From NCBI GenBank assembly GCA_025451785.1, contig JANWJV010000123.1, positions 1 to 34,762 of the forward strand: a DNA stretch of 34,762 bases, in the 5' to 3' direction. Below are positions 5,787 through 24,162 of this stretch, in pieces; the stretch's first letter is position 1, and each line of letters starts with the position of its first letter. The notes below the pieces were generated by a model. That model made no database searches. It saw nothing but the letters and a program-made list of their open reading frames with translations, and had not been told where the DNA came from. Position numbers and translations under genes: made by a program. The stretch comes from Bacteroidia bacterium. GTDB taxonomy: Bacteria; Bacteroidota; Bacteroidia; JANWJV01.

Positions 5787-7757
5787 ATGAAAACAAAACT
5801 TACCCTCATCGCGCTCGTAGTGGCGGGCGCAGCACAGGCTCAAACCCTGTACAAGGAAACCTTCGGGAACCTTACGCTTTCCACTATCAACAGCGTGAGC
5901 TGCGCAACTGTGCCGGCAAACATGCAGCTTATCAACGTAGGCAATAAAGTAGCCGACGCAAGCACTAACAACAGGCCTTTTAACGCGTCTCCTTTCACTA
6001 CCACAGCCTGGGTAGCGGCTTCAGTAACCACTTCGGTTACCGACACCGCCGGTGAATCAACCTCATGGCTTAACCCTTTTGGTGTAGCCGACAAGTGGCT
6101 GATCACCCCTCCTATCAGCGGCATCAACGCCAGCACTGTGCTGAGCTGGGAAGCTTTTGCTCCTGACGCGCAGTATGCTGATGGTTACGAGGTTTGGGTA
6201 TCTGCAGCGGCAGGCGCCAGCAGCACTCCCACCACTACCGACTTCACCGCGTTGGGAACCAACAAAGTGTTCACGATCGCTGCTGAAGCCTCCACCGGTT
6301 TCGTACCGCACGGTATTTCTCTTACTGCTTTCGCAGGACAAACCGTACGCGTTGCTTTCCGTAACAACAGCAACGACAAATTCCACCTGTATGTTGATGA
6401 CATTATGGTGGTTGCCAACGTATCGGCGAAAGAAGGCGCGGTAACTTCTGCAGCTTCAAGCGCCACTATCCTTGGCCCTTCAGGCGGCAACGTAAATCTT
6501 ACCGCTGTACTTAAGAACAACGGTTCTTCAACCATCACCAGCGCGGTGATCAAGTACAAGATCGACAATGGCGCCGCTGTTCCCCAAACCTTTAATCCCA
6601 ACATCGGCTTTACCGGTACTTTCAACGCTGTGTTCAACGCAGTTTCTGTGACCGGTGTAGGCGCTCACAAGATCAAGATGTGGGTTGACGATATCAATAC
6701 CACCGGCCCCGACGGCAATGCTTCTAACGACACTTCTTCTGTTTGGGTGTACGTTGCCAGCCAAACCGTTCAGCGCAAAGTGCTTTACGAAGGTTTCAGC
6801 AGCTCTACTTGCGGACCCTGCGCTTCAGCAAACCCCGCGCTTCACGCGTTCCTTGTTGCCAACGGTGTAAACACCACCAATGGTAAAGTGGCCGCTGTAA
6901 AATACCAGATGAACTACCCCGGTGCCGGCAATGATCCTGCTTACACCACTGAGGCTACCACCCGTCACAACCTTTACCAGGTGGCAGGTATTCCCCACGG
7001 TGTAGTAGACGGCAATACATGGAGCGATCACCCTGCTAACATCACACAAGGTGTTATCGACGGTGATTACAACATACCTTCACCCTGGGAATTCCAGAGC
7101 CTGGCATTCAACCCTGCCGGCACTACCCTTACAGGTACCCTTAAGTCGTATGTTGACTACGACAACACCAACGGCAAACTGAAACTGTTCTGCGCTTTTA
7201 CTGAGGATATGTTTACCTCTGGCGACAACGGACACGGTGTTCAGTCGAACGGCGAAACCACCTGGTATGAAGTAATGCGTAAGATGGTTCCCAACGACCA
7301 GGGCACCACGCTTCCCAACCAGACCAATAACGGCAACACGCCTATCAACCTGAGCTTCACCTTCAGCGGTACTCCCAAAGTATTCACCTCTACCAGCAAA
7401 ATGACCGCTGTAGTGTGGGTACAGGACATGACCGACCTTCACGTTTACCAGGCAGGTGTTGCAGGCAACGCTACCGCTATTATTGATGCCGACAGCAAGC
7501 TCAGCACGCTCGATATTTACCCGAACCCCACCAACGAGAACGCTACCATCCGTTTCACACTCAAGAATACTGAGAACGTGGAGATCAGCGTTTACAACAT
7601 GATGGGCGAAATGGTTCAGAGCAACAAGCTTGGCAGCCTGATGAGCGGCTCGCACTCAACCGCGATCGACGCTTCCGGCCTTGCTAATGGAATGTATCAT
7701 GTGAACGTAACTGTTGGCGGCCAGACCACCAGCAAGAAGTTCGCTGTTCAGAAGTAA
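5787..7757 (+). CDS. T9SS-secreted adhesin-like protein with Omp28/thioredoxin-like domain
   Basis: 656 residues. Signal peptide at 1-19 (MKTKLTLIALVVAGAAQAQ). Residues about 20-210 resemble a choice-of-anchor J/cleaved-adhesin beta-sandwich (KETFGN start, DKWLITPP, LYVDDIMV end). Residues about 220-325 look like a CARDB/Ig-like module. Residues about 330-560 match Omp28-related proteins, with a thioredoxin-like CGPC at 342-345 and GIPHGVVDG near 401. Residues about 575-656 are a type A sorting domain (IYPNPTNENATIRF ... GMYHVNV). It should be exported by Sec, cross the outer membrane through T9SS and be anchored or released at the surface. It has its own strong promoter and ends in a strong terminator. 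The domain order is clear; the substrate or ligand is unknown. Confidence 0.88.
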   Translation: MKTKLTLIALVVAGAAQAQTLYKETFGNLTLSTINSVSCATVPANMQLINVGNKVADASTNNRPFNASPFTTTAWVAASVTTSVTDTAGESTSWLNPFGVADKWLITPPISGINASTVLSWEAFAPDAQYADGYEVWVSAAAGASSTPTTTDFTALGTNKVFTIAAEASTGFVPHGISLTAFAGQTVRVAFRNNSNDKFHLYVDDIMVVANVSAKEGAVTSAASSATILGPSGGNVNLTAVLKNNGSSTITSAVIKYKIDNGAAVPQTFNPNIGFTGTFNAVFNAVSVTGVGAHKIKMWVDDINTTGPDGNASNDTSSVWVYVASQTVQRKVLYEGFSSSTCGPCASANPALHAFLVANGVNTTNGKVAAVKYQMNYPGAGNDPAYTTEATTRHNLYQVAGIPHGVVDGNTWSDHPANITQGVIDGDYNIPSPWEFQSLAFNPAGTTLTGTLKSYVDYDNTNGKLKLFCAFTEDMFTSGDNGHGVQSNGETTWYEVMRKMVPNDQGTTLPNQTNNGNTPINLSFTFSGTPKVFTSTSKMTAVVWVQDMTDLHVYQAGVAGNATAIIDADSKLSTLDIYPNPTNENATIRFTLKNTENVEISVYNMMGEMVQSNKLGSLMSGSHSTAIDASGLANGMYHVNVTVGGQTTSKKFAVQK

Positions 7758-22484: not shown

Positions 22485-22492
22485 TATCTTTG
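22485..22492 (+). promoter_or_regulatory. Promoter -7 element of PHM-like T9SS gene
   Basis: TATCTTTG, exact TAnnTTTG match, 17 bases before the ATG at 22510. The -33 position reads TGGG. The predicted leader is only about 10-15 bases. Confidence 0.5.
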
Positions 22493-22509: not shown

Positions 22510-24162
22510 ATGAAGAAAAACTACTCCCTTTTAGTTTCTGCTTTCATCGCGCTTTCTTCCGCAACTCATTCGCAGAATACCTACGACTACGTTTATACCA
22601 TGTTCCAGGCCAGTTGTAATGCTGGCGGCTGCCATAACTCTACCAATAAGGCGGGCGGCCTCGACCTTGGTGCTTCTTCAAACACTGTTTATAACAACTT
22701 GTTCAACGTTGCGCCTGTTAATACTACCGCGGCTGCAAAAGGAGATAAACTGGTATTGCCGGGTTACCCGCACCGCAGCTTCCTGATGCGCAAATGCAAT
22801 AACAACCTTGATCCTGATAACAATATTACCAGCGGCGAAGGAACTGACATGAGCTCAGGCCTTAAGTCGAGAGAACGTGAAGTGATCCGCCAGTGGATCA
22901 TTGCAGGCGCTCCTCAAACGGGCATGGTGGCCGACACTGCTGTGATCAACAAATATTATGGTGGCAAAGGCATCAACAGTTTCCCTGTTGCTCCTCCCTT
23001 GCCCACGGCAACCGGCTCCTTCCAGATCCACCTTGGCAAGATATTTATCGCTCCCAACGACGAGGTAGAATATTTCATCAAGCACCAGTTAACACTTCCC
23101 GATACTGTTAAGGTAAAACGCCTCGACCTGAAGATGGCCAAGCAGGCGCATCACTTTATTGTTTACAAGTTCTTTCCCGGACAGGAGGCCGGTTTCTCCG
23201 ATGGCCTAAGGCTGCTTAATACCACCAACGGACAAGGTTCCTCCACGGGTAAAGTAAGCCTCGTTGCCGCATGGCAATATTCCTACGATGACTCATTGCC
23301 TGCCAACACTGCTTACTTATGGGAAAAGAATTCTGTTTTGGATCTTAACTACCATTGCCATAACTCGAATATCGATTCAGTATTGGCTATCGACGTTTAC
23401 ATCGACGTATATACAGAGCCCAAAACCTCCTCTTCTGCCATCATGTATTCAGACATCATCCAGAACGTGTTCTTCAACATTCCCAAGAACCAGAACTACG
23501 TTTATTCCTCGCCCTATTCCAACAACGGCGCTACCAAGATGTGGAGGCTTTGGCAGTTATCGTCGCATACGCACAAGTACGGCAAGGACTTCGACATTTA
23601 CCTGCGCAACTCCAACGGAACGCAGGGCACACAGATATTTGAAGGCTATTACAATGCCGACTATACTTTTAACCAGGGTTATTATGACTGGGCCCATCCG
23701 CCCATTGAGGATTTCATTAAGCTTACCGGCACATATCTCGACATGAACCCTAAGGACGGCTTTATCTTTAAAACCACCTGGTTCAATTACGGCAACCAAA
23801 ACGTAGGCTTCGGTTATACTACCGACGATGAGATGATGCTCTTCTATGTTTCTTATATCCTCGGCAACAACATTGTTGGCGTAAACGAAAAAGAAGCTAA
23901 AGAAAGTTTTCTGAAGATCTACCCCAATCCTTCAGCAGGCAATACCGACCTGCATTATTCCCTTAAAGGAGAAGCCCGCGTTCAGCTTGAGCTTTATGAC
24001 CTGCTCGGCAACAAAGTGGCTTCGCTGCTCGACAAACAGATGGGACAAGGAAATTACACCTATGTACTGCAGCCCGCGGAGCACCACATGGCGCCGGGAG
24101 TTTACTTCGTTAAGGGTACGGTTGATGGAGTGTGTACTGTGGAGAGGTTTGTTTTACAGTAG
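22510..24162 (+). CDS. T9SS protein with PHM-like copper monooxygenase fold and cytochrome-c-like N-terminus
   Basis: 550 residues. Signal peptide at 1-21. At about 25-135 lies a small domain resembling cytochrome-c-like PSCyt modules, with C36-x4-C41-H42 (SCNAGGCH), LPGYPHRSFLMRK and VIRQWIIAGAP. Residues about 165-450 show the copper-ligand order of peptidylglycine hydroxylating monooxygenase: His214-His215 (AHHFIVYK), His282/His284 (NYHCHN), His353-x-His355 (SSHTHKYG) and Met442/443 (DDEMMLFY). Residues about 460-550 are a type A sorting domain (YPNPSAGNTDLHY ... GVYFVKG). The heme spacing is C-x4-CH, not CxxCH, so heme binding is doubtful. A redox enzyme on the cell surface is the best reading; the substrate is unknown. 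The stop codon lies within an AGTAGGC repeat. Confidence 0.82.
   Translation: MKKNYSLLVSAFIALSSATHSQNTYDYVYTMFQASCNAGGCHNSTNKAGGLDLGASSNTVYNNLFNVAPVNTTAAAKGDKLVLPGYPHRSFLMRKCNNNLDPDNNITSGEGTDMSSGLKSREREVIRQWIIAGAPQTGMVADTAVINKYYGGKGINSFPVAPPLPTATGSFQIHLGKIFIAPNDEVEYFIKHQLTLPDTVKVKRLDLKMAKQAHHFIVYKFFPGQEAGFSDGLRLLNTTNGQGSSTGKVSLVAAWQYSYDDSLPANTAYLWEKNSVLDLNYHCHNSNIDSVLAIDVYIDVYTEPKTSSSAIMYSDIIQNVFFNIPKNQNYVYSSPYSNNGATKMWRLWQLSSHTHKYGKDFDIYLRNSNGTQGTQIFEGYYNADYTFNQGYYDWAHPPIEDFIKLTGTYLDMNPKDGFIFKTTWFNYGNQNVGFGYTTDDEMMLFYVSYILGNNIVGVNEKEAKESFLKIYPNPSAGNTDLHYSLKGEARVQLELYDLLGNKVASLLDKQMGQGNYTYVLQPAEHHMAPGVYFVKGTVDGVCTVERFVLQ

Follow-up and report, generated by a model that had tools for sequence, protein, structure and literature searches.

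What does a bacterial gene at this locus do with a predicted cytochrome c joined to the ligand set of an animal copper monooxygenase? The window, as we call the whole 34,762-nucleotide stretch of a Bacteroidia bacterium contig analyzed here, contains an open reading frame of 550 amino acids that runs from an ATG at 22510 to 24162 on the forward strand, as given by the ORF listing and its translation; all parts of this gene described below lie on that strand. Stops interrupt the frame read antisense to it. The translation divides into a cytochrome c, a dicopper core like that of peptidylglycine alpha-hydroxylating monooxygenase (PHM) and a sorting domain for type IX secretion (T9SS). A first-pass annotation had proposed a surface-exported copper monooxygenase, and the elements it pointed to are real: C36-x4-C41-H42, HH214-215, H282/H284, H353-x-H355, M442/M443 and the T9SS tail all stand where it placed them. 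The gene begins 84 bp downstream of an unrelated membrane-protein gene and is convergent with its next neighbor in the window. A candidate Bacteroidetes -7 box (consensus TAnnTTTG), read directly from the sequence (TATCTTTG, 22485-22492), suggests that the gene may have its own promoter, although so short a match is possibly due to chance.

The two ends of the protein indicate how it would leave the cell. Residues 1-22 (MKKNYSLLVSAFIALSSATHSQ, 22510-22575) form a probable signal peptide, judged by eye, and residues 468-550 (23911-24159) form a T9SS type A C-terminal sorting domain. The tail matches TIGR04183 (E = 1.5e-9; 37.7 bits against a cut-off of 23) and PF18962 (28.1 bits against 27). 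With both curated cut-offs passed and SprA encoded in the same genome, the T9SS export claimed earlier holds up, and the protein's predicted role as a T9SS substrate is supported. The window also encodes a further large secreted protein (5787-7757) whose T9SS tail was matched by search.

Apart from its tail, the 550-residue protein alone has nothing above a Pfam cut-off. Cu2_monoox_C reaches 12.2 bits against a cut-off of 23, and phmmer with the single protein as query did not find PHM among PDB sequences. By single-sequence tests alone the PHM idea would look unsupported, and the sub-threshold Pfam match favors the view that the His and Met residues are a chance arrangement in an unrelated beta-rich surface protein. 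The protein's relatives speak to the contrary. Searching 396 Bacteroidota genomes gave protein matches in 47, many of them to the tail alone, while about 20 matches covered the core at 27-32% identity. The first-pass annotation had named two Pfam families as a check, and here the outcome was divided: Cu2_monoox_C was matched by 21 of 22 family members at E <= 1 (best 1.2e-7), this protein itself falling below the cut-off, whereas Cu2_monooxygen, the N-terminal copper domain, was matched by none of the 22 at that threshold. That N-terminal domain is nonetheless covered by both the fold match and the profile alignment to PHM.

A profile built on the family brought out the relationship. Against PDB sequences its top match was DBH (E = 0.0068), with many PHM entries besides, and against rat PHM it aligned over 248 columns spanning both copper domains (E = 3.5e-4); the rat PHM reference sequence is identical to 1opm across 310 residues. 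Structure prediction, also put forward in the annotation as a check, agrees. AF2 modeled the full chain with moderate confidence (pLDDT 73.6), and when this model was compared with the PDB using Foldseek the best 31 matches were all PHM or DBH, with E down to 1.4e-12 and TM, normalized to the target length, as high as 0.64. From profile alignment to rat PHM and Foldseek, a CuH-type domain is placed at approximately residues 165-320 (23002-23469), and from Cu2_monoox_C in relatives and DBH/PHM profile matches a CuM-type domain at approximately residues 321-452 (23470-23865).

Joint alignments with PHM point to the residues that would hold the metals. The copper ligands of PHM are H107, H108 and H172 for CuH and H242, H244 and M314 for CuM, and these align with H214, H215, H282, H353, H355 and M442, respectively. 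The predicted CuH ligands are encoded at 23149-23154 (H214-H215) and 23353-23355 (H282), and the predicted CuM ligands at 23566-23574 (H353-x-H355) and 23833-23835 (M442, in a DEM motif). In DBH the ligands are H262, H263, H333, H412, H414 and M487 (PMC4846438). Each of the five histidines is His in 75 of 75 aligned homologues, and M442 is Met in all 74 that cover the position. The pairs HH214-215 and H353-x-H355 thereby stand as annotated. Two other assignments needed trimming: the HxH proposed at 282-284 retains H282 but loses H284, which is His in this protein alone among the 75 and is ruled out as a ligand by the alignment, and the choice left between M442 and M443 falls to M442, there being no support for M443 in the homologue alignment. 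Because H284 is not conserved, the CuH site would consist of the HH pair and H282 as in PHM, rather than of an HxH.

The fusion had been thought unusual for a bacterium, which our survey contradicts. Family A, to which the protein belongs (profile E <= 1e-40), occurs in 56 of 395 Bacteroidia genomes, and Cu2_monoox_C is above cut-off in 165 of the 395 when families A and B are taken together; the cytochrome c-PHM-like architecture is common in Bacteroidia. Bacterial Cu2_monoox_C proteins are already visible to databases through Pfam. We found no characterized bacterial cytochrome c-PHM protein in the open-access literature, which is weak evidence of absence, and a 2020 review tabulates PHM and DBM under eukaryotes only (PMC7435645). 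Family A members are mostly 540-600 aa, and some occur as adjacent copies; divergent family A genes paired side by side are kept in four genomes of one family (L125, L127, L129 and L130). A plasmid search returned T9SS-tail matches only.

In a tree of the core, family A splits into a T9SS branch of 27 rows that includes our protein and a largely lipoprotein branch of 21 rows without the sorting tail, three of which are tailed. Family B is a separate clade (support 100/99), and the long branch leading to rat PHM joins the tree between the two families. Family B proteins resemble the 550-aa protein in joining a cytochrome c (CxxCH ... MPPW) to a PHM-like core with conserved copper ligands, and in usually carrying a T9SS-type tail. 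They differ in motif (IVHHV / QIHYP / PHMH in family B, SHHF / NxHxxN / SHTH in family A) and in heme motif spacing, which is CX2CH wherever the motif is covered in family B and CX2-4CH in family A. One family B protein is encoded in the same genome as ours (G000:C46, L059:1-1077); the contig start cuts its head, and all six copper ligands are kept. Elsewhere, a single genome carries four family B cytochrome c-PHM-T9SS genes in tandem (L137:7212-13816). Head and core are found together in nearly all homologues of both families, while one short member (L030) lacks the head. Shared by the aligned core-covering relatives from the 396-genome search are C36/C41/H42, K95, M114, W129, HH214-215, H282, H353, H355 and D440-E441-M442. 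Strict ligand conservation in two deep clades, together with the profile and fold matches, places the likeness to PHM beyond chance; a fortuitous arrangement is refuted and keeps practically no probability. The PHM-like dicopper core that had been proposed is thus backed by fold, profile and ligand conservation, and sequence and model together support assigning the protein to the PHM/DBM copper type II monooxygenase superfamily, with a putative activity to match.

Residues 24-156, approximately (22579-22977), make up a c-type cytochrome head, as judged by AF2, fold match and profile matches. The model of this region is compact and all-helical (pLDDT 91.8). Its predicted heme-binding motif, C36-x4-C41-H42 (22615-22635), is invariant or almost so in a 22-sequence family alignment and a 47-sequence head alignment, and W129 is invariant in the family alignments. 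Within family A the motif is spaced CX2CH in 13 sequences, CX3CH in 19 and CX4CH in 15; since the spacing varies in this way, the x4 seen here is no peculiarity of the 550-aa protein. Such free heme-motif spacing within one orthologous domain is unusual for c-type cytochromes. Of the 48 family A rows, 45 have Met at the position of Met114 (22849-22851), two have Cys and one has a gap; by this alignment Met114 is likely the distal heme ligand.

The head gave two fold matches only: a modest one to the cytochrome domain of hydrazine synthase alpha (TM 0.51, E = 0.25) and a very weak one to FoxE. A head profile search returned mostly c-type cytochromes, with hydrazine synthase alpha and FoxE first, followed mainly by cytochromes c6. 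By profile and fold, the C-terminal cytochrome domain of hydrazine synthase alpha (5c2v) and FoxE (5mab) are therefore the nearest solved relatives of the head, although the similarity is weak and the enzymes differ. Pfam matches in the heads of family members were to CTI, Cytochrome_CBB3, PSCyt1 and Cytochrom_C. The earlier description of a PSCyt-like head is right in that this is a c-type cytochrome head with C-x4-CH, but the head is nearer to the hydrazine synthase alpha, FoxE and CTI type than to PSCyt1, whose match was sub-threshold and was rejected as a specific assignment. Cytochrome c assembly proteins are encoded in the same genome.

In animal PHM and DBM, which produce peptide hormones and noradrenaline, both coppers are reduced by ascorbate. 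Rat PHM (1phm, 1sdw, 1opm) is alike in its two-domain core, its six ligands in register and the DEM motif at the CuM Met, at about 15% identity to the 550-aa protein. The core of the latter has a single Cys, C283, so the PHM/DBH-type disulfides are missing. It further differs from PHM in having a heme c head, as opposed to ascorbate-only reduction, and a T9SS tail with no PAL domain. Dopamine beta-hydroxylase (DBH, 4zel) shares the core, the ligands and the placing of an N-terminal accessory domain before the catalytic core; in DBH that domain is a DOMON beta-sandwich, whereas our protein has no DOMON there but a helical head with C-xn-CH. No heme is seen in the DOMON domain of structure 4zel, and DBH depends on ascorbate (PMC4846438).

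With PHM as its closest fold, the protein might be a bacterial peptide-amidating enzyme with true PHM activity on glycine-extended peptides. Close to one family A gene, 17 bp 3' of it, lies a gene for an NHL-type beta-propeller with a T9SS tail (L120:6501-7919), an order that recalls PHM-PAL. Yet compared with the PDB this propeller matched designed Pizza proteins and PknD, with PAL not among its matches, and the window has no such neighbor; by inspection, no PAL domain or gene was seen in the ORF or in the listed ORFs of the window. R240 and N316, the peptide-binding residues of PHM, correspond to S351 and L444, and the joint alignment has S/T/W/F and I/L/F at these positions throughout family A. 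Their absence makes peptide amidation unlikely; lacking a PAL as well, we rejected it, and regard it as highly improbable.

We reasoned that the protein is probably a copper monooxygenase with the PHM/DBM fold that is exported to the cell surface and brings its own electron donor. Its fold, ligand set, c-type head and export tail are well supported by computation; metal and heme occupancy, catalysis, the direction of electron flow and a substrate are inferred. Sec would export the chain to the periplasm, where heme c would be attached at C36/C41/H42, and two coppers would be bound, CuH at H214/H215/H282 and CuM at H353/H355/M442. T9SS would then move the folded protein out via SprA for anchoring or release. 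Electrons may pass from an outer-membrane or extracellular donor to the heme, then to CuH and CuM, where O2 would be activated and a C-H bond of some extracellular substrate hydroxylated, the heme taking the role that ascorbate has for the animal enzymes. A heme-copper oxidase is also encoded in the genome, as would fit an organism that lives with oxygen.

That heme c serves as a built-in donor is the simplest reading of a fused head that almost all members of both clades have kept. The same fold and metals could also exist with a heme that does not donate, acting instead as an acceptor (in an outward copper-site oxidase), as an O2 or redox sensor or as a structural relic, while the core draws on peroxide or a different reductant. 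Cys replaces the conserved Met114 in two family A members and the headless L030 exists, both of which lean that way; that the head and its invariant heme motif persist in both deep clades and under either mode of export suggests coupled function instead, and we consider a non-donating heme rather unlikely.

Gene neighborhoods offered few pointers to a partner. Beyond close relatives, no recurrent partner gene was found in 39 neighborhoods (19 + 20). Only two kinds of neighbor were seen repeatedly: AhpC/TSA redoxins, at two loci of the lipoprotein form, and PCMD-T9SS proteins, in the vicinity of four further loci. At the former (L049:10160-10723 and L057:5464-6081), an AhpC/TSA-type lipoprotein with a CPMC motif adjoins the lipoprotein form of the family, and is a possible redox or copper-loading partner. 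At the latter (L131, L132, L136 and L138), a PCMD-domain T9SS protein lies beside or close to family A genes. The 39 neighborhoods gave no clue to a substrate or partner, and some genomes hold tandem copies, as might be expected of a non-enzymatic surface binder that captures, for example, copper or heme. Such a binder would have no need of both PHM-type sites, and every covering member has them, CuM Met and DEM included; we hold this reading to be more doubtful still than that of a non-donating heme.

An enzyme with a built-in heme donor remains our preferred reading, and we give an even chance to its extension to the families as a whole: a large bacterial branch of PHM/DBM in which a fused heme c with CX2-4CH spacing replaces ascorbate as the electron source of a surface-exported dicopper monooxygenase of the uncoupled type that acts on an extracellular substrate. 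It has long been asked how PHM and DBM, textbook copper enzymes of animals, move electrons from CuH to CuM, and a covalent heme donor, if present, would let electron entry and turnover be followed by visible spectroscopy. If this reading is true, PHM/DBM copper chemistry would be widespread in bacteria, and many Bacteroidota would carry an unrecognized oxidative activity at their surface.
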